Below, in pieces: positions 1,533-20,793 of a stretch of 20,830 bases of DNA (positions within the stretch are counted from its first letter, which is position 1; each line of letters opens with the position of its first letter). The DNA lies in IMG/VR virus record IMGVR_UViG_3300035694_000035, positions 1 to 20,830 of that record; one strand, given 5' to 3'. The notes beneath the pieces are model-generated. The model was given only the letters and a program-made list of their open reading frames with translations, searched no databases and was not told where the DNA came from. The translations under genes and the position numbers were made by a program. Source of the DNA: a virus.

Positions 1533-3122
1533 TTAAGCCACGCGAACAGCCCAAAGGGTGAGTGTACCGTTGTCGTTCAGGCCGCCACCGCCGCTCAGCG
1601 ACCAGGTTACGGACGGCTGTTGGCCGCCGATAGCCGTTCCAAGCAACTGCACGGACTGGTGCGCCACGCCGCTGCCGCCGTCCAAGCCAACGCTATGCGG
1701 TGCTTCCCAGCTGCCGTTTGCGCCCGACAGTGAGGAGTTGCCGCTGCCCGTCCAGGTGTAGAACAAGGCTTGGGCGTAGAGTTTGTAGGTGCCCGTAGGC
1801 AGAACGACAGGCAACTGCAACGAGGTGCTGCTGCCGCTCAGGCGAGTGACGTTGAAGTAGGTTGAGCCCACGCCTCCGGCAGGTCCAGCAGGACCCGTTG
1901 CGCCTGTTGGTCCCGTAGGACCCGAGGGGCCGGGGTTGCCTTGCGGACCTTGAATGCCCGCAGGACCCGTTGCGCCCGTTGCGCCTTTGGGACCTTGCGG
2001 ACCTGCAGGGCCGGGGTTGCCTTGCGGACCCGGAGGACCTTGAATGCCTTGCGGACCCGGGTCACCCTTCGGACCCGGAGGACCTTGAATGCCTTGCGGA
2101 CCCGGAGGACCCGCAGGACCGGGGGTGCCGTTATCGTTGATTTGGAACACGCCCGGGGACAGCTCATCAATGACGATGTTGGGACCTGCCAGAATCTGTA
2201 GGTCACCCGTCCGTGCGTTGACAGAGGTGACGCCAGTGTTTGTGAAGAGCGTGGTCTGGCTATCGGGCTGGGAGAGGCCGATGCCGTTGCCTGCTAGGAA
2301 GCGCAACACGCCCGTCTGCCCGCCCAACGAGGTTACGCCTTCGTTCGTGATGGTGAGGTTGCCGGCATTGTCGAACGTCGCATTGATGCCTGCGCCGCTC
2401 TCAATGGTGACTGCACCCGTGACGCCGTTGATGCTCGTGATACCGAGGTTCTTCAGAACCAGTTGGCCAGCCCCTGGCGATGAGATGCTGATTCCCGTTC
2501 CCGTCACGTTGATGGCGCCCGTGACGCCATTGATGCCCGACACCAACGCGCCCACGACCGTGTCGAACAGGGACTGCATGGACGGTAGAAGGTACTGGAT
2601 GTTAGCCGCCGTTACCGCAGGCGCACCCGGACCCACCGTGATTTGGGCGAACGGAGTGAAGCCTACCGGGGCCGCAGTCGTACCCGGAGAGTACTGATAG
2701 GTGATGCTTTCATTGACCGAGTACACCGTGCCGCCGCTGATGACGCCCGTTTCACTCTCAATGTCGCGTGGCTGCGGGTTCGTCTGCGCCTGCGCGTACT
2801 GCACGGAAATGAGGTCAACACGCGGGGTCGAACCCGTGTTAGGCGTCAGCGGGATGACCTGCGCGGGGCACGTGTCGATGACGCGCTGATTGAGGAACAA
2901 CGTCTGGCCCTGCCCGCCGATGGTGATACCCAAGGCGTTAGAGGCCGGGACGATGGTCAGCGGGCCAGTGCCGTTCCCCGGCTGGGGCATAGCACTCGTC
3001 GCACCGAGCAGGACCGTGAGAGCAGCTGCAACCAGCTGACGGTTAGCGTCAATGTCTTGGTCCAGGTCTGAGCTGAGGACCAATTCACCGTCGCCATACG
3101 TGCGGAACATTACACTAGACAC
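1533..3122 (-). CDS. Tail fibre protein with collagen-like Gly-X-Y stretch
   Basis: This is a 529-residue protein starting at GTG 3122, seven bases after AAGGAGT. Residues 1 to about 190 form a globular, probably virion-attachment, part. Residues about 196-330 carry four imperfect beta repeats of the type [14 protein letters not shown], as in many phage fibres. Residues 332-415 are 28 uninterrupted Gly-X-Y triplets rich in GPP, GPQ and GNP, expected to form a collagen-like triple helix. Residues 416-529 form a beta-rich C-terminal head ([17 protein letters not shown]), probably a receptor-binding or trimerising domain. It lies directly downstream of the baseplate wedge genes (12-base gap to the gp48-like gene), the usual place for fibres. 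The overall shape (attachment part, shaft, collagen rod, tip) is inference; the repeats are visible directly. Confidence 0.85.
1878..2129 (-). repeat. Collagen-like Gly-X-Y coding repeat
   Basis: The stretch encodes 28 consecutive Gly-X-Y triplets of the fibre protein. At DNA level it contains near-identical units on the plus strand (ggaccttgaatgccttgcgg recurs), a possible substrate for slippage or recombination that would change shaft length. Confidence 0.85.
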
Positions 3123-12592: not shown

Positions 12593-14137
12593 TTATGACC
12601 CAGCGGGTTTGGACGATTGGCTGATGATGCTGACCGTCTGTCCAGCCGTGACGTTGACGACCAGGCGGTTGACGACCGACATGAACTCTACGACGATGTC
12701 CACGCGGCAGATGCCCGCTTTAATGTTGGCCACAGGATTGTTCGACAGGTTGCACGTGACGTCGTAGTCGTCAATCTTGAATGCCTTCTTCTGCGGCCCG
12801 AAGTAGGCACGGAGTGCAGCCTCAACGCCGTTACGCAACGGGTCCGGGTCACGCGTGGTCTGCAGCCGATTGACGAACTGACCGAGCGTTGGGCCCGAGA
12901 GGTCGCGCAGGATGGAGTTGAGTTTGCGCGTGTACGCAATCTCACTCGTTGCCTGGTTAGACGAGGTGTTCTTGCCGTGACGCACACCGATAGCCTTAGC
13001 ACCCGGAATCGGGTACGCAAGGAAGATGATGCCGTTGGCTTCGAGCATCGCCATGTCGCTGGCAGAGTACGGCTGCGGGTTCGCACCCATCGTGGTGTCC
13101 GTGCCCAGGATGCCGTACACCGGGTTATTGCCCGGGGATTGCTCTGGGTCAACCGACAGCGCCACACCCGCGATAACGCCCGTAGTTGGGAGCGTCACGT
13201 TGGTGTTGAGGTACGTGTCGAGGTACGTCACCGTGCCGAGGCAGAGAATCAGGTCAGGGTCCGAGACACCCGCCGTGTTCTTAGCTGCAACCGCTGCAGT
13301 AGGCGTCATGGCGCCCATGCCGGCGTACGCAGCCGCCGATTCACTCTTGGCGAACGCCAGAAGCGTGGACCAAGCCGTGGAATCCGTGCTACCCGCAAGC
13401 ATAACGCCGTCGATGCCAGTGCCGCGAAGGGCATACATGCCTGTGCGCGCACCTGCACCGCCATCCGTGCCGAGCAGTTTGGCCGTGTTGAGAGTGGCCA
13501 CGCCGTCCAGACCGCCCGTCAGTACGATGGTTTCACCCGTCGCTGGAGGGAGGACCGTGCTAGGCGTGCCCGGGAGTGCTAGCTTGACGAGTTGCGACGC
13601 AGCGTTGACTGCGTTCATGATGTTCGTCCAAACCGTGGCACCCGCGTTGCCGTCAATGCGGTCGAAAACTTCCGTCACCGAACCGAGGGTGACGAGCACC
13701 TTCCAGGTGAGGTTTCCGGTAACGCTGTTGCTGCCGGGCAAGAGGGACAGTTGAATCTTGTCGCCGTAGCTGCCCGTGTAGAAGGCCGTCGCCAACAGGC
13801 CCGGGGCTGGAGTGCCCGTTGAGTCGCTGAGCGTGCCCGTTGCGGCTGCATCCGTGCCGTCCGTATCACGGACTGCCGTCACGCCACCCTGGGGCTGCTG
13901 CGCGAGGAAAAGCGAACCTACCTGAACGATGTCGTGGCCCGAATTAATCGGAGGACCCCACGTGGTCAGAAGGTCTTGGGGCGTGTTCTTGGTGACCGGC
14001 ACACCGACCGGACCCCACGACGCACCACCTGACAGGCCCAGGTTCATTAGGTCCTGTGCATTCGTAAGGATAGGCTGGGGCGGGTTTACTCCAAGGTAAA
14101 CGTCGTCAACCCCGGTGCCGTTCGACAGTAACGCCAT
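12593..14137 (-). CDS. Tail sheath protein
   Basis: This is a 514-residue protein. Sheath-family features include the N-terminal 'SWGPVGVPVTKNTPQDLLTTWGPP', 'LFLAQQPQGGVTAVRD', 'GSYGDKIQLSLLPGS', and a C-terminal core with 'SEIAYTRKLNSILRDLSGPTLGQFVN' and 'IKAGICRVDIVVEFMSVVNRLVVNV'. The core handshake strands at both ends allow contraction. The start is ATG at 14137, with AAGGAGT centred more than ten bases upstream and overlapping the end of the preceding small gene. The tube gene follows 16 bases later. The central region (about 100-220) is a variable, surface-exposed beta insert. Confidence 0.92.
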   Translation of the reverse strand: MALLSNGTGVDDVYLGVNPPQPILTNAQDLMNLGLSGGASWGPVGVPVTKNTPQDLLTTWGPPINSGHDIVQVGSLFLAQQPQGGVTAVRDTDGTDAAATGTLSDSTGTPAPGLLATAFYTGSYGDKIQLSLLPGSNSVTGNLTWKVLVTLGSVTEVFDRIDGNAGATVWTNIMNAVNAASQLVKLALPGTPSTVLPPATGETIVLTGGLDGVATLNTAKLLGTDGGAGARTGMYALRGTGIDGVMLAGSTDSTAWSTLLAFAKSESAAAYAGMGAMTPTAAVAAKNTAGVSDPDLILCLGTVTYLDTYLNTNVTLPTTGVIAGVALSVDPEQSPGNNPVYGILGTDTTMGANPQPYSASDMAMLEANGIIFLAYPIPGAKAIGVRHGKNTSSNQATSEIAYTRKLNSILRDLSGPTLGQFVNRLQTTRDPDPLRNGVEAALRAYFGPQKKAFKIDDYDVTCNLSNNPVANIKAGICRVDIVVEFMSVVNRLVVNVTAGQTVSIISQSSKPAGS

Positions 14138-14146
14138 CTGTTTTGG

Positions 14147-14383
14147 TTACTCCTTCGGAGGTGTTTGACTAGGACCTTTTGGGCCTTTTGTATCAGCTAT
14201 GTTCTTCGTCGCGCCATTATGGGGTCCCTTGTTTTCAATGGGAGCTGGTGCAAGCACCTTGACGCCGAAGTTGTGGTTGCGGAATTGCTCCTCCACATCG
14301 TCCCAGTCTAGCACATCCCCCGGCTTATGCGGGCCGAACGGGAAGCGCACCTGAAACTTGAACTTGGGAATCTTCAAAGCCAT
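14147..14383 (-). CDS. Small basic protein before the sheath gene, unknown function
   Basis: This 78-residue protein has residues 1-45 rich in aromatic and basic residues (MALKIPKFKFQVRFPFGPHK, 'DVLDWDDVEEQFRNHNFG'). The C-terminal half is a disordered Lys/Pro/Gly tail (DTKGPKGPSQTPPKE). It overlaps the preceding gene by TAATG and its last codons supply the AAGGAG for the sheath gene. The 'PGDVLDWDDVEEQFRNHNFGVKVLA' part resembles small proteins with a short SH3- or beta-like fold found beside sheath genes, but I do not recognise a family. Confidence 0.65.
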   Translation of the reverse strand: MALKIPKFKFQVRFPFGPHKPGDVLDWDDVEEQFRNHNFGVKVLAPAPIENKGPHNGATKNIADTKGPKGPSQTPPKE

Positions 14384-15021
14384 TAGTTACCGCCTTTGTT
14401 TACTAGGAGTAGGCCCAGAGGCTGGCTGTCGAGTGCAGCGTAGAGGTCAACCTCAGACACCGTGTAGGCGGCTGTGGCGTCACCTTGCGGCACTTGCGTG
14501 ACCGTGAAATCAGCCATATAGCTCATCTGGGCAATGTAAATGGAATCTGTTTGCTCGTCGTCAAACTCCAGGATGTTTGAGAACGTGACGGCCGTAACCG
14601 TCGTGTCTGTCTCCGTCTGCCTGAAGAAGTCCGTCAGCCCTGCACGGATACGGTCTTGAATGGCGCGACGGGTCGCACGGTCGTAGGACCACGCCTCAAC
14701 GATGACTTGCTTCTTGGACCGCCCCACTTCGTAGACTGCCTGGTTAGTCTGTCCTACGACCGGGATGCTGTCGTAGTTGTCGATGAAAGGCACCAGCTGC
14801 TCCACCTTGCCGGAGTAGACTGCAACCTGCGCCATGTGGTTCTCCAGCCGTTCCGTCACCTTGACCTGAATCGGGTGGCCGGGGGTCACGAGGGTAGCGG
14901 GAATCTGGCCAGCCGTCGTGGTGAGGTTGACGTAGTTTGGTGGTATGCTAGGCTGGAACGGTGCGAGGACGTTTGCGACCGTTGCTGCTAGGTTGTCGAG
15001 GACATCATCAATGAACGCCAT
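14383..15021 (-). CDS. Putative tail terminator / tail completion protein
   Basis: I take the ATG at 15021 (MAFIDDVLDNLAATVANVL), which has CAGGTG nearby and overlaps the receiver gene by 14 bases. A longer reading to 15045 adds only MRWHWQVL, a shadow of the receiver gene's end. The 212 residues include a helical N-terminus, 'VTPGHPIQVKVTERLENHMAQVAVY', 'VYEVGRSKKQVIVEAWSYDRATRRAIQDRI' and 'TDFFRQ', then beta strands. This helix-plus-sheet layout, with 'RAIQDRIRAGL' like the helix of tail terminators that test tail length, and its place before the sheath suggest a tail terminator. The family is not certain. Confidence 0.55.
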   Translation of the reverse strand: MAFIDDVLDNLAATVANVLAPFQPSIPPNYVNLTTTAGQIPATLVTPGHPIQVKVTERLENHMAQVAVYSGKVEQLVPFIDNYDSIPVVGQTNQAVYEVGRSKKQVIVEAWSYDRATRRAIQDRIRAGLTDFFRQTETDTTVTAVTFSNILEFDDEQTDSIYIAQMSYMADFTVTQVPQGDATAAYTVSEVDLYAALDSQPLGLLLVNKGGN

Positions 15022-15352
15022 GAGCACCTGCCAATGCCATCTCAACGAGCATCTTGGTGAGCGGTTTGATAGCGTGCGGACGGTCCTTCAGTGCAGCCTG
15101 CTGGCCCATCGAGGTCGTCAACACGACGTAGGTATTTAGGCCCGCAGCCTCAACGGCATCTGCAACCTCACCGCCCGTCATGTTCGGCATGATATAGTCG
15201 AGCATGGCCACATCCGGTTTGTGCTCCTGGATAGCCTTCCACGCTGCACTGCCATCGTTGCACTCAGCCACGACTTCGTAGCCCAACTTCAACATGATGC
15301 GTTTGCACACATCCAGCATCAGCGGGCTGTCGTCAGCGATAACTGCCTTCAT
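15008..15352 (-). CDS. Stand-alone CheY-like response regulator receiver protein
   Basis: The chosen start is ATG at 15352 (MKAVIADDSPLMLDVCKRIM), giving 114 residues; the open frame to 15412 only adds sequence shadowing the upstream gene. Key receiver residues are visible: acidic pair D7/D8, phospho-acceptor D52 in DVAMLDYIMPNMTG, conserved T80 in VVLTTSMG, and K96-P97. 'SMGQQA' is the same as the CheY 'SAMGQQA' neighbourhood. The interval from QQ to KP is about eight residues shorter than in Thermotoga-type CheY, so the alpha4/beta5 surface is reduced. There is no output domain. Known receivers take phosphate from histidine kinases and act by protein contact. It overlaps the coiled-coil gene by 20 bases and the tail-completion gene by 14, so it is expressed with virion genes. 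Its target is unknown. Confidence 0.85.
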   Translation of the reverse strand: MKAVIADDSPLMLDVCKRIMLKLGYEVVAECNDGSAAWKAIQEHKPDVAMLDYIMPNMTGGEVADAVEAAGLNTYVVLTTSMGQQAALKDRPHAIKPLTKMLVEMALAGAHGVH

Positions 15353-15590
15353 ACTCTTCTTCCAACTCCTCCATAAGAGTGATGTACTTCTGTTCGATGT
15401 CTCTGCACTCACTCTCCAGCATAGACCAGATGCGTGTCGAAGTCCAGTAGGGGAGGAACCCCAGCGAACCCGCAGACGTCAGACGTTTGGAGCAACGGGC
15501 CTCAGCCTCAATTATCTCCCGTGACTGCGCCTCTTGGAGCGCCACCGCCTTGGCGATGAACTCCTGTTCCTTAGATGAATACGCTTTCAC
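15333..15590 (-). CDS. Small helical/coiled-coil protein of unknown function
   Basis: The open frame reaches 15641, but I prefer GTG at 15590: AGG lies six bases upstream and the overlap with the preceding gene drops from 71 to 20 bases. The resulting 85 residues are strongly helical: 'EFIAKAVALQEAQSREIIEAEA', a short break 'SAGSLGFLPYWTS', then 'MLESECRDIEQKYITLMEEL' ending in an acidic EEEYEGSYR. It is translationally overlapped with the receiver gene downstream, so a physical or functional partnership is possible. There is no HPt or kinase motif (no H-x-x-K-G). It could equally be a small neck protein. Confidence 0.55.
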   Translation of the reverse strand: MKAYSSKEQEFIAKAVALQEAQSREIIEAEARCSKRLTSAGSLGFLPYWTSTRIWSMLESECRDIEQKYITLMEELEEEYEGSYR

Positions 15591-16335
15591 AGATTGCCTG
15601 ATAGCCTTGCAGACCTGACGTGAACGCCGACACCGTCTCAATCTTGAACCTGTTCCCGTTCTGGTCGCTAACCATGTCGCCAGGCATAATCTGCACGCCA
15701 GGCAGTAGCGGGATGTACGCGAAGTGCGTAGAGCGGTGGGTAGCGGTGGGGAACTTCAATTCTTGCGCTGGCCCGAGGCGGGAGTAGGGCTGCAATCCCA
15801 TAGGGATAACGGCAGCGGTTCCCGTCCCCGCGACATCGTACATGCCGTTGTCGAGAACGTAGAGCCATTCGTCCTTCTTGGACTGGCCCTGGTATACGCC
15901 AAGACCCAGCACAGGGTCATCTGTCTGGGAGGGGCCGTTGGGGCGCGTGAGGCTCCCCATAATTTCGGTGCGAGCGAAGACAGCAGGCATGAGAGGCTGC
16001 ACGTCAGAAAGGACGTACGCACGACCGTCCGGTGAACCCGCCAGTGTGGGACCCGTTTCAACCAGTACGTCGCCAATCTTGAGTGAACGAACGTCGCAGA
16101 TGCCGCCGTACAGCATCTTGTAGATGGGCTCATTCTCCAGCGTGGACTTCGGGAGGCCCAGGGTGATACGCGCCGGGAATGACTCGTTGACGAGGTTCAG
16201 TGGGTCGATGATGCTGGTTGCTGCGTTTGCAGTACCGCTCAGGCCGCCCAGACGATAGACCTTGTAGGTGGAGGCGATAGGCTTGATGCGACCCAGACCA
16301 CGACGAAGGGCGCTATCAACTTGAGACAGACCCAT
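15571..16335 (-). CDS. Putative head-tail connector / stopper protein
   Basis: This is a 254-residue protein starting at ATG 16335, three bases after the preceding stop. The N-terminus is 'MGLSQVDSALRRGLGRIKPI'. The middle has 'LENEPIYKMLYGGICDVRSLKIGDVLVETGP', and the C-terminus has 'LLPGVQIMPGDMVSDQNGNRFKIETVSAFTSGLQGYQAICESV'. The C-terminal 'P-G-D-x-V-x-D-x-x-G-x-R-F-x-I' beta unit is typical of small head-closure (stopper) proteins. Here it is joined to a longer N-terminal part. It lies between the adaptor candidate and the tail-completion candidate. Family assignment is by position and motif. Confidence 0.5.
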   Translation of the reverse strand: MGLSQVDSALRRGLGRIKPIASTYKVYRLGGLSGTANAATSIIDPLNLVNESFPARITLGLPKSTLENEPIYKMLYGGICDVRSLKIGDVLVETGPTLAGSPDGRAYVLSDVQPLMPAVFARTEIMGSLTRPNGPSQTDDPVLGLGVYQGQSKKDEWLYVLDNGMYDVAGTGTAAVIPMGLQPYSRLGPAQELKFPTATHRSTHFAYIPLLPGVQIMPGDMVSDQNGNRFKIETVSAFTSGLQGYQAICESVFI

Positions 16336-16338
16336 GGC

Positions 16339-17139
16339 TTACACCGAGTATTGGGTAGTTTTGATACCCGACTGCGCGTTGGGCGGGTAGAACGCCAGCA
16401 TGACGCCCATCTCATAGCGATAGCGCGCAAGAAGGTTGTTGCGAACCTTCAACTCATCAGGACGGAACACCGCCTGACCGAGGCTTTCAGAACCTACCTG
16501 ACTGAATCCGAGGTTCTGGCTTGCGGACAGTAGCTGGGCTTCCAGCGCATCGCAAACCGGGAGGAGGCCGTAGGCCACCTGCGCGGCTGCAGCGTTGCCG
16601 TTGCCGTCGTCAACCACGTACATGGGCGACGGAAGTGAGGTGCCGTTAGCTACTACCACAACATTGCTCACCGGAGTGATGCTGAACGTCGTGGAGCCGT
16701 TGGCCGGCAAAAGTGAGAACTGAATGGCGGTGGACGTCACCAGTCCCAGCCCATTGTTGAGGGCTGAGATAGTCGCACTCTGGGCCAAATAGCCGTTCAG
16801 GTTCTGACGAATCTGAGTCAAGAGGCCGTTGGCGACCGACATCAAAGGGTCAACTGCAACGGTGTCGCTGGCCTGGACCGTGTACGATACCGTGGTTGAG
16901 CCGATGGTGAACGAATAGACTGCACCGACATTCGCCGGGGAGTAGATGATGAACGCCCCGTAAGGCTTGCCGAGCAGCAGGGACTCCTCCTCAGGCTGAA
17001 GCACGTTCATGTAAAACTCCAACTCACCAGCGCGGGTGACTGCACGCAGACCCATCGTGGTGTTAGAATCAATACGACCCGCCGCAGGGATACCCAGGTG
17101 GCGACGGATAGACGCCTTCTGCTGAAGAGTTAGAGCCAA
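16339..17139 (-). CDS. Putative head-tail adaptor protein with inserted beta domain
   Basis: The start is TTG at 17139, just after the TAA of the preceding gene. The 266 residues show helical ends (LTLQQKASIRRHLGIPAAGR and 'LKVRNNLLARYRYEMGVMLAFYP'). They flank a central beta-rich region at about 62-175 with 'YSFTIGSTTVSYTVQASDTV', a repeat style found in virion decoration domains. The helical parts resemble head completion adaptors that sit under the portal. Gene order after the capsid agrees. I could not verify the family; the beta insert is seen directly. Confidence 0.5.
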   Translation of the reverse strand: MALTLQQKASIRRHLGIPAAGRIDSNTTMGLRAVTRAGELEFYMNVLQPEEESLLLGKPYGAFIIYSPANVGAVYSFTIGSTTVSYTVQASDTVAVDPLMSVANGLLTQIRQNLNGYLAQSATISALNNGLGLVTSTAIQFSLLPANGSTTFSITPVSNVVVVANGTSLPSPMYVVDDGNGNAAAAQVAYGLLPVCDALEAQLLSASQNLGFSQVGSESLGQAVFRPDELKVRNNLLARYRYEMGVMLAFYPPNAQSGIKTTQYSV

Positions 17140-17766: not shown

Positions 17767-19176
17767 TTATCGCGCCGAGGCGACTTGGAGAGCAACTGCA
17801 CGCTTGTAACGTGCCGCGCTGGCCGAAGGAACCACGATGTTGTTGATAGTCGCATCCGTAGGACACGCGTACCCGCCGATGTAGTACCAGCCCATGCTCA
17901 GGATTTGGCCTGCGCGGTCGAGCGGCATACGGTTGACGAACACGATGTCGTCCACGATGTCGAACTTCTGGATACCCATGTCCGGCATCGAGCGGATGGC
18001 TTCAGCCGTACCCGCGAACGGGGACTGCTGCACGTACTTCTCGCCCGTGATGATTGCATGGCGAACCGTCAGCTGTTTGCCGGCGTGGTTCGTGATGCTG
18101 AACGACGGGCTGTTGGTGGTCGGTACGAACGTCACACCGAAGTTGCGGTTGATGCGCGCCCCCTTGAACTCGGCAGAATCAACCGTGCCTTGCGACATGA
18201 TTTGGTACTGCGGGTCCGTGAAGAACTGAGCGTCAACAATCGGGTCGATGTAGCACGGATAGGTGCCATCGGCCAGAGGCGACTTCACGCCGTTCGCACG
18301 CAGCTCAGACACCGCGTTGATGACGAGTTGGGCACCGATGGTGTCCGTCGCATCAAGCGCCAGTGCGCTGGCTTTGCCGTTCGGACGATAGACCTTCGCA
18401 CCGTCGAACGCCGTGATGACGTCGCCAACTGCAAGGGTTTCGTTCGCAGCGAACGTGACCGTGCCGCTGACGCCGAGGCTGCCCATGCTGGAGGTGCTAG
18501 GCGTATCCGGGGTCCATCCGACGATGGTGGCCGCCGAAGTGCTGCCGTCCGCAGCCTTGATGATGGTGACGTTGAGCGGGTTCGATGGGCTCACCGCCTG
18601 CGGCGCACCCGTTGGGAACGTGTTGCCGTTGATGGTGATGGTAGCGAACGCCGTGTTCAGACCGAGGACGTTGTCCACATGCGCCGTGGTCTGGGCCGTG
18701 GTGGCCGCCGTGGCGAAGCTGGAGCCAGCGAGGTACGCCTGGAACGCCGTCTGCATGACGCGAAGGTCAAGCGACAGTGCCGCGTTCTCACCGATGTTGT
18801 CCACGTTCTGCTTGAACAGGTCCGCAATGACTTCCTTCTCTTGAACGAGGTTCAGGTCAAGGAAGTAAGGCGACATGCCGATGCCGACCGACCACTGTTC
18901 GAACGGATAGGTGGGGTTACCCGCACCGACACCGCCGATGCCCGTCACGCCGTTGTCGAGGCCCGTGTTGGCCGAAGGCGCCAGGTCAGAGAGAACAGGG
19001 CTGATGCGGCCCGCACGCGAATACGTGATGCTTTCGCCCGAGCGAACCGGGACCGGGAGGCGGAACGCCGTCTTGCGGTAGGCGTTCTTCGCGCCCAACT
19101 GCATCTCATAACGACGAGCCAGCATGTTCTGCTGGAAAATGCCTTGGAGCGCGGTTGGAAAGTTTTCAAATGCCAT
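17767..19176 (-). CDS. Major capsid protein (HK97 fold expected)
   Basis: This is a 469-residue protein with AAGGAG upstream of the ATG at 19176. The N-terminus is MAFENFPTALQGIFQQNMLARRYEMQ. The core motifs 'YPCYIDPIVDAQFFTDPQYQIM', 'LTVRHAIITGEKYVQQSPFAG', 'IQKFDIVDDIVFVNRMPLDRAGQILSMGWYYIGGY' fit the N4 gp56-like class of HK97-fold capsid proteins. An inserted beta-rich region at about 165-265 (TITINGNTFPTGAPQAV to 'GTVTFAANETLAVGDVITAF') is likely a surface domain. The gene is flanked by a structured leader upstream and a terminator downstream, as expected for the most abundant virion protein. Confidence 0.9.
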   Translation of the reverse strand: MAFENFPTALQGIFQQNMLARRYEMQLGAKNAYRKTAFRLPVPVRSGESITYSRAGRISPVLSDLAPSANTGLDNGVTGIGGVGAGNPTYPFEQWSVGIGMSPYFLDLNLVQEKEVIADLFKQNVDNIGENAALSLDLRVMQTAFQAYLAGSSFATAATTAQTTAHVDNVLGLNTAFATITINGNTFPTGAPQAVSPSNPLNVTIIKAADGSTSAATIVGWTPDTPSTSSMGSLGVSGTVTFAANETLAVGDVITAFDGAKVYRPNGKASALALDATDTIGAQLVINAVSELRANGVKSPLADGTYPCYIDPIVDAQFFTDPQYQIMSQGTVDSAEFKGARINRNFGVTFVPTTNSPSFSITNHAGKQLTVRHAIITGEKYVQQSPFAGTAEAIRSMPDMGIQKFDIVDDIVFVNRMPLDRAGQILSMGWYYIGGYACPTDATINNIVVPSASAARYKRAVALQVASAR

Positions 19177-19361: not shown

Positions 19362-20060
19362 TTAACTGTAGGGACTTTTGACGACCTCATCCACCAGGTT
19401 CTCATCAAACGCTTCCTGGGCCGTAAGGTACACCTCACGCCGTTTGTAGCGGTCTGCCCAGTACTCAGCAGGCTTGCCGGTACGCTCTGCATAGATGTTG
19501 TTGATGACGGCCATCATCTTGTCGCCACCCTCCATGTAATCCTTGAACTCCCGGTACTTGCCGTAAAACTCGTCACGGTACTCATGAATCATGAATATGG
19601 CTGTGGAGTCAATGAGGCGACGGGTTGCAGCCTGGGTGATGATGGTTCCCATGCTTGACGCCTCACCCATGATGTGGACGTTGACTGGCCGACCTTCGCG
19701 CTGAATCTTGTTCATGATACCCATGACGCCGAGGCCTGAGGATAGGCTGCCCCCGGGTGACGTCAGGAACATCGTGATGGGATGGCCCTTCTTCAGGGTT
19801 AGGTGCGCGCTCAGCAACTCGTGCTGCATCTCAGTGCAGCTGTTCTCCTCAACCTCACCGTGGAAGAACAGAAACCCCTCTTGGTGCGCCAGGTTCTCTT
19901 CAAAAGCACCGTCTGGGATAGCCTTCTCCATGATGGTCCACACTATCTCATCGATAAGCGTGCCCACGTTCTTGAGGCGACGAGGCCGCAGGTGCTCCGT
20001 CACTGCGACCCGTATCTTGTAGTCTAGGGCTTCGTGGGTGAGTTTGCCTGTATCAGACAC
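19362..20060 (-). CDS. ClpP-like serine protease, probable head maturation protease
   Basis: This 232-residue protein starts at GTG 20060, eight bases after GGAG; the codon before is a stop, so this is the first usable start. The ClpP fold is visible: 'ITMFLTSPGGSLSSGLGVMGIMN' (strand and oxyanion region), nucleophile S136 in GEASSMG, H159 in FMIHEY, and probable D203 in WADRYKRREVYLTAQEAFDENLVDEVV. The N-terminal 65 residues are an extra helical region. Immediately upstream of the capsid gene, this is the usual slot for prohead proteases of the ClpP class. No separate scaffold gene is seen, so the target could be an N-terminal part of the capsid or a scaffold elsewhere. A role in host proteolysis is the alternative. 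Confidence 0.85.
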   Translation of the reverse strand: MSDTGKLTHEALDYKIRVAVTEHLRPRRLKNVGTLIDEIVWTIMEKAIPDGAFEENLAHQEGFLFFHGEVEENSCTEMQHELLSAHLTLKKGHPITMFLTSPGGSLSSGLGVMGIMNKIQREGRPVNVHIMGEASSMGTIITQAATRRLIDSTAIFMIHEYRDEFYGKYREFKDYMEGGDKMMAVINNIYAERTGKPAEYWADRYKRREVYLTAQEAFDENLVDEVVKSPYS

Positions 20061-20793
20061 TCAACATTCTCCGCAATTTAAGGGGTGTTAGGGTGGGGAC
20101 GTTTAGATGCCAGGGGAGCAGTTTCCGGTAGACTTTCTCAAGCAGGACAACGTCCTGGGCGTTGTACTTCCGCATGAGGGACCACGCAGCAGGGTCGCCT
20201 GAGATACACTTGCTCCACAACTCCCATCCCGTATGCTGCACCTTGGAGCCAAGGCCCAGGAATTTGGCGATGTAGCTGAGTTTGTTCGAGTTGAACTTGA
20301 AGTGTCTGCGAGCAATCTTGAGCGTGTCGATGGTTCGGAAAGGCGACGTTGGGCCGAAGCCATGAGCGATGAATCGCGCATGAGCCTTGCGTATATCGTG
20401 ACGGTCACCATTGTGCGCGATGATGACGTCAGCTTCGTCAAAGACCTTCCACAACTCCCAAGCCAATGCCCGGTCGTTCATTTTGTCTTTGGCGTAGCCC
20501 TTGAAGTCTGGGAGGGCGTAGGTGTGAACCTTTGATTCACCCTCCCAGCGCACGGAGAAGCTGAGCAGCTGCCATTCCGTGTTAACGTCAATGACGTTCT
20601 GCTCGTAATAGTCCCAAACCCACGCTAGGTTCGGGGCGTTCTCAATGTCGAGGAACGCTATGCGGAGGTTATGCTTTTGACCAGGCGTCTTCAAACGCTT
20701 CGTCTGTGACCGTCTTGTCCGAGAAGTCGGTGGGCTTGCCTTGTGCGCGGTTGTTCGTGCCCGGGGTGATTTTTGCGCCTTCGGTCTTGCCAC
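20053..20793 (-). CDS. DEDDy-type 3'-5' exonuclease (PolB/RNase H-like)
   Basis: The motifs are clear: Exo I D49-I-E51 in RIAFLDIENAPN, Exo II in IIAHNGDRHDIRKAHARF (N128, D130 or D133), and Exo III Y210-N-A-Q-D214. This matches stand-alone PolB-type proofreading or RNase H-like exonucleases. The start is uncertain. GTG 20793 has GGGAG six bases upstream but would overlap the upstream gene's coding-like tail by 125 bases, adding 33 arginine-rich residues. TTG 20694 gives a 26-base overlap but no Shine-Dalgarno. The core fold starts around residue 40 either way. It is encoded beside the protease, in the packaging/head cluster rather than with replication genes, so a role in DNA end processing is possible (inference). 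Confidence 0.8.
   Translation of the reverse strand: MARPKAQKSPRARTTAHKASPPTSRTRRSQTKRLKTPGQKHNLRIAFLDIENAPNLAWVWDYYEQNVIDVNTEWQLLSFSVRWEGESKVHTYALPDFKGYAKDKMNDRALAWELWKVFDEADVIIAHNGDRHDIRKAHARFIAHGFGPTSPFRTIDTLKIARRHFKFNSNKLSYIAKFLGLGSKVQHTGWELWSKCISGDPAAWSLMRKYNAQDVVLLEKVYRKLLPWHLNVPTLTPLKLRRMLSV

Follow-up and report, generated by a model that had tools for sequence, protein, structure and literature searches.

The window (the whole stretch of DNA that was analysed, a 20,830-base virus record) encodes on its minus strand a small receiver gene, which we call REC, among the neck-type genes of a myovirus late operon. The order of this operon is terminase, portal, scaffold, Clp-like protease, major head protein, neck-type genes, sheath, tape measure and baseplate. 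Contig L001 (32,311 bases), which differs from the window by 1 base over 11,820 compared bases, reaches further upstream than the window and adds the scaffold, portal and terminase genes. The sole difference between the two lies at window position 15151 and is a missense change (E68K) inside REC, which could be population variation or sequencing error. The features of the region, listed from upstream to downstream, are as follows.

19362..20060, minus strand: Clp-like head maturation protease, upstream of the head protein (PF00574, E=9e-24; phrog_94, E=2e-35).
17767..19176, minus strand: major head protein (phrog_1357, E=1.4e-12), the basis of the tree used below.
16339..17139, minus strand: c266, neck-type gene after the head genes; relatives have homologues in the same order.
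15571..16335, minus strand: c254, neck-type gene directly before the p102-REC pair and left border of the slot (phrog_14605, E=6e-7; role by position only).
15333..15590, minus strand: p102, small all-helical (hairpin) protein with a probable GTG start at 15590 and a 20-nt overlap with REC.
15008..15352, minus strand: REC, 114-aa single-domain receiver with D7/D8, D52, T80 and K96-P97 (PF00072 match, AlphaFold2 model, PDB fold matches).
14383..15021, minus strand: n212, directly after REC in the neck/tail-completion position (phrog_13532, E=3e-6; role by position only).
14147..14383, minus strand: small gene between n212 and the sheath; L016 has an orthologue, and L002 a short gene at the corresponding position.
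12593..14137, minus strand: tail sheath (phrog_23, E=7e-30).

The neck roles of c254 and n212 are assigned from position and weak PHROG links, since PDB profile searches with both proteins gave nothing useful. In a profile comparison the n212 protein matched its positional counterpart in L002 and L009 (E=4.5e-7). The reading frame of p102 is open as far as a TTG at 15641.

The REC reading frame runs from 15352 to 15008 (MKAVIADDS...IKPLTK...GVH). As the first-pass annotation had described, it overlaps both of its neighbours, at 15333-15352 (20 nt) with the open reading frame ending at 15333 and at 15008-15021 (14 nt) with n212, the latter if n212 starts at the ATG at 15021. The claim that the gene has no promoter or terminator of its own also held, in that a search of 14100-16400 turned up neither a sigma-70-like promoter nor an intrinsic terminator. 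Because of the overlapping neighbours and the lack of such patterns nearby, REC is very probably co-expressed and co-translated with the neck genes, and from the position of the gene we infer that this happens late.

The profile search and structure prediction proposed for REC in the first-pass annotation both bore out its description as a complete single-domain receiver, with the residues D7/D8, D52, T80 and K96-P97 as named there. PF00072 (Response_reg) matched far beyond chance and above its curated cut-off (E=6.1e-16; 59 bits against 30.2). The AlphaFold2 model, built from six phage sequences, had a mean pLDDT of 90 and consisted of five strands and five helices, with the lowest confidence at residues 81-90 and the C-terminal end. 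The best fold matches in the PDB were receivers, namely Mycobacterium tuberculosis NarL, Thermotoga maritima CheY and archaeal CheY, with TM-scores up to 0.86. REC is thus a receiver by profile cut-off, by its acidic pair, Asp, Thr/Ser and Lys residues, and by its (beta-alpha)5 fold.

The tie to the CheY group made in the earlier reading turned out to be loose; its receiver part stands while its family part does not. The best NCBIfam match was an archaeal (halobacterial-type) CheY model at 57.5 bits against a cut-off of 200, followed by CheB, and the E. coli-type CheY model reached 30.4 bits against a cut-off of 189, so that REC scored below the curated cut-off of every CheY model reported. 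In trees the phage receivers fell nearest CheB and NarL-type receivers, although the grouping was weakly resolved. The CheB receiver domains of two chemotaxis operons (L127 and L150) are placed close to the phage proteins there; unlike the phage receiver, CheB carries a methylesterase domain. A single origin of the phage receivers, seen as a single change, was obtained in 50% of bootstrap trees and is neither rejected nor proven, 114 residues being too few. Codon composition (GC3) was 0.69 for REC and 0.70-0.71 for its neighbours, and REC is therefore not a recent import.

The survey of related phages, also proposed at first pass, found eight diverged phage lineages in which the receiver occupies one slot upstream of the sheath gene, with c254 before it and n212 after it; the pocket residues are kept in all REC-bearing relatives. 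None of the outcomes listed at first pass as refuting was seen, whether in the profile search, in the predicted fold or in the relatives. Receiver queries against IMG/VR found L006, L002/L005, L007/L008, L009 and L019/L096, of which L019 was retrieved through its sheath as well. In each of these the receiver lies between a c254 homologue and the gene in the n212 position, and, on contigs long enough to show it, has the head genes on one side and the sheath gene on the other. As a control for the bias of searching with the receiver itself, we took the L005/L009 sub-clade's head protein as query instead. This gave two new usable phages, L164 and L166, both with a receiver in the slot (2/2). Homologues of c254 adjoin REC in all eight lineages, and among receiver-bearing phages the identity of the major head protein to that of the window goes down to 26%.

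Two details of individual relatives can be added. An HNH-type endonuclease reading frame lies between c254 and the receiver of L009 (L009:4941-5750), where p102 lies in the window. The first ATG of the L019 receiver falls inside strand beta1 (L019:6800-6830), with no usual in-frame upstream start in the sequence read; this receiver may be N-terminally trimmed or have an unusual start.

Other candidates were rejected. A receiver search in annotated phages gave 12 matches, of which H1 and H6 were inspected. The former, in an Acinetobacter record, is bacterial chromosome with ypdA/ypdB beside hemC and argH, and the latter (Komp_PAO1_1) is a match on the plus strand beneath a gene annotated on the minus strand; the other ten may include a neck-slot relative. 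L097 encodes a response regulator of 224 aa, close to a phage-like stretch that is unrelated, and is no relative.

We then compared which parts of the receiver are conserved. Residues D7, D8, D52, Q84, K96 and P97 are invariant in 8/8 receivers and position 80 is Thr or Ser, while only 14 columns are invariant in total. Compared with 500 draws of eight random bacterial receivers, from a source set picked by similarity to the window receiver, which makes the comparison indicative only, mean identity of the phage receivers was 0.40 against 0.28 in beta1-alpha1 (0/500 draws as high), 0.45 against 0.27 in beta4 and the following loop (1/500 as high) and 0.17 against 0.25 in alpha4-beta5, which is among the least conserved regions. 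The remaining regions showed ordinary conservation relative to the random sets. Helix alpha1 is the usual kinase-docking helix of receivers, and alpha4-beta5 is part of their usual output face. The conserved alpha1 region and variable alpha4-beta5 therefore suggest that the phosphate-accepting side has been kept and the output-giving side has not.

The same comparison bears on the possibility that REC is an effector which, like CheY, is phosphorylated by a host kinase and then binds and changes a host target such as the flagellar switch, a regulator or another enzyme. Single-domain receivers commonly work in this way, the closest solved sequences and folds include the CheY proteins of T. maritima and archaea, and the pocket intact in 8/8 lineages also fits an effector that needs phosphorylation to act. 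Against this, few regions are less conserved than the alpha4-beta5 output face, the residue three before the Lys, which corresponds to CheY Tyr106, differs freely between the receivers (H, I, L, T, F, W, L, A), and REC scores far below the cut-offs of the curated CheY models. The combination by which a FliM-binding face would be recognised, an aromatic switch residue with a conserved alpha4-beta5-alpha5 surface, was not found in the eight phage receivers. The window receiver is also short in alpha4-beta5. The first-pass annotation had noted this shortening but put it at about 8 residues; the Gln84 to Lys96 spacing, 12 in the window receiver and 16-17 in the other seven phage receivers (17 in L006), indicates about 5, and the deletion is private to the window phage among the eight lineages. 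Mimicry of CheY at FliM is hence unsupported, given the varying Tyr106 position, the poorly conserved alpha4-beta5 and the low CheY scores, and we consider an effector role in general not very likely.

A second reading takes the conserved docking side, the most conserved part of the phage receivers, as the working part of the protein. REC would dock on a host histidine kinase and inhibit it directly, with no phosphotransfer needed. An alphaproteobacterial precedent is Osp of Rhodobacter sphaeroides, a CtrA-controlled protein that inhibits CckA by docking (PMC9430884). Osp is single-domain and receiver-like, as is REC, and acts on a kinase, as REC might by analogy; it is however a cellular protein. 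PIT4 of Pseudomonas phage LSL4 acts on host histidine kinases and motility by binding several histidine kinase domains (PMC10714779). PIT4 is an early gene and is not called a receiver in the abstract of that study, whereas REC is a receiver in the late operon. Pure docking would not need D52, Thr/Ser80 and K96, yet these are retained in 8/8 lineages, and we regard direct inhibition as distinctly unlikely.

The closest relative of the window phage, L016 (head protein 85%, tube 94% and sheath 73% identical), lacks the gene. It has orthologues of every protease-to-baseplate gene that its contig covers, and only REC and p102 are missing; the stop of c254 overlaps the start of n212 there. In the tree of head proteins, receiver presence needs two changes, with L016 nested among REC-bearing phages with strong support and the root not known. 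One gain and one loss of REC would be the simplest reading of these sequences. Since L016 has no REC and the window phage has its private alpha4-beta5 deletion, the function of REC is dispensable in at least one lineage.

Receivers were also rare in more distant relatives. Only one of 40 records from the wider sheath family, L019, had a PF00072 match above the cut-off. A further record of this family, the L085 contig, has a 26-bit receiver match, below the cut-off, which lies on the strand opposite to the sheath and outside the neck genes (G039:C1:2711-2947, minus strand). Prophages carrying this sheath were present in 131/299 Acetobacteraceae genomes, and for the 20 best-matching loci the fetched flanks, some of them incomplete, contained no receiver. 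A search with the c254 profile for prophages of the REC clade was negative in 385 alphaproteobacterial and 397 Acetobacteraceae genomes, apart from one weak match.

These absences bear on an idea raised at first pass, that the receiver fold has been reused structurally. The constant neck slot, the overlapping neighbours and the late operon would all suit a neck protein with a structural or assembly role. However, L016 keeps all of the surrounding genes without REC and p102, about 40 wider sheath-family records have no receiver (L019 being the exception), and the catalytic residues that a purely structural reuse does not need are conserved. The absence in L016 and the conserved residues weaken the idea, and we judge it very unlikely. 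It is similarly very doubtful that REC belongs to the near-core of the neck module in this clade and is regulated by phosphorylation. In that reading the phosphorylation state of the host, sensed by a viral receiver produced along with the neck proteins, would tune the timing or manner of head-tail joining or the timing of lysis, with p102 as a partner in one sub-clade.

REC could on the other hand be a cargo gene under little selection that is now decaying in the window lineage. Its loss in L016, the private deletion in the window phage, and a missense change in REC as the sole difference of two near-identical contigs are all consistent with decay. The pocket has nevertheless stayed intact across phages whose head proteins are down to 26% identical, and the GC3 of REC, close to that of its neighbours, does not point to a recent import. 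We find this explanation quite improbable.

Only the window, L006 and L019 have p102, which is placed between c254 and REC and has products of 85-115 aa; none turned up in the remaining five receiver-bearing lineages, and in L016 it is missing jointly with REC. Its model is a long, all-alpha two-helix hairpin (pLDDT 86). It has no family and no confident fold match, with nothing below E=0.4 in Foldseek, and a profile match to interferon gamma in the PDB (E 1e-4) was judged a chance match of helical composition. CheS, the helper of Sinorhizobium meliloti CheY1, is a STAS protein (PMC12654446); the mixed alpha/beta fold of STAS rules out that the predicted all-helical p102 is CheS. A CheZ/CheT-type phosphatase or a His-phosphotransfer protein was rejected as well, the window p102 having no His and no DxxxQ, and neither being conserved in the three homologues. 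In the sub-clade of the window p102 may be a partner of REC.

The reading that we favour is that REC is a phosphoacceptor made late in infection, a competing substrate or phosphate sink for host kinases. A sink or decoy had been among the possibilities raised at first pass and stays plausible. The well-conserved kinase-facing regions (beta1-alpha1 and beta4 with its loop), the variable output face and the fixed slot with overlapping late genes speak for it, while the lack of the gene in L016 and the private deletion in the window phage speak against it. The intact pocket, the absence of an output domain and the late, probably coupled production make a competing phosphoacceptor the best supported function, although we hold it tentatively, somewhat short of an even bet, and direct kinase inhibition and a CheY-like effector are its close rivals. 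The phage would make REC late, translationally coupled to the neck genes; REC would take phosphoryl groups from at least one host histidine kinase (CheA or another) and so would drain or divert host signalling, with the p102 hairpin as its candidate partner in the window's sub-clade. No histidine kinase (HATPase_c) was found in the REC-bearing contigs tested, a set outside which L164 and L166 lie; these contigs are fragments and a kinase could lie beyond them. The phosphate would therefore come from host kinases or small-molecule donors.

The alphaproteobacterial precedent for a sink is S. meliloti CheY1, which serves as phosphate sink for CheA (PMC4214558). PIT4, described above, is a precedent for a phage protein that targets host histidine kinases (PMC10714779). 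Both CheY1 and REC are single-domain receivers without an output domain, REC being receiver throughout its 114 residues with an intact pocket, as expected of a sink of this type. CheY1 competes with another regulator for phosphate from the latter's kinase, and by analogy REC may do the same; CheY1 is a cellular gene of a che operon, however, while REC is a phage gene.

Phage CheY-like genes have already been reported, and viral receivers of several kinds exist. Those of the Alteromonas phages V22 (ORF30), A5 (gp11) and P24 were proposed to be auxiliary genes (PMC7289586, PMC10579305). They resemble REC in being stand-alone and of similar size, with a pocket that is intact by eye and with neighbour overlap in the late structural region, but they lie in the tail-fibre module and REC in the neck. 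The similarity is structural only, at 27% identity, and a tblastn search with the window receiver (E<=0.01) did not retrieve the V22 gene. REC thus has neither the sequence kinship nor the tail-fibre-module position that would place it in the Alteromonas-phage family. The cREC proteins of jumbo phages are divergent, receiver-like and linked to NAD+/ADP-ribose enzymes (PMC7824862). They share with REC a phage receiver fold with catalytic Asp residues; REC differs in matching canonical PF00072, and no NAD+/ADP-ribose enzyme is among its annotated neighbours, which are head, neck and tail genes.

Relative to the open-licence papers searched, what is new here is the slot in the neck operon conserved across diverged phages, the selective retention of the side that takes phosphate, and the pairing of p102 with REC, together with the fact that L016 cleanly lacks the pair. 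The phage receivers that we found in the literature were noted singly as auxiliary genes, whereas here one slot is occupied in eight diverged lineages. If the favoured sink reading is true, L016 and the REC-bearing phages would form a matched comparison from which one could learn directly how a viral phosphoacceptor affects signalling in the host.

Some observations concern the rest of the phage. One phage contig encodes two different proteins resembling DNA polymerase exonuclease subunits (window 20053-20793, minus strand, and L152:13433-14137, minus strand; phrog_403 and phrog_192). The same phage has an RNA ligase plus Dda-like helicase gene (L152:11599-12774, minus strand), which suggests that it has its own replication and RNA-repair genes, and no integrase was noticed among the genes scanned in the phage of L152. 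In the window, positions 1533-3122 (minus strand) encode a tail-fibre-like protein with a long collagen-like Gly-Pro-Pro/Gly-Pro-Gln repeat.
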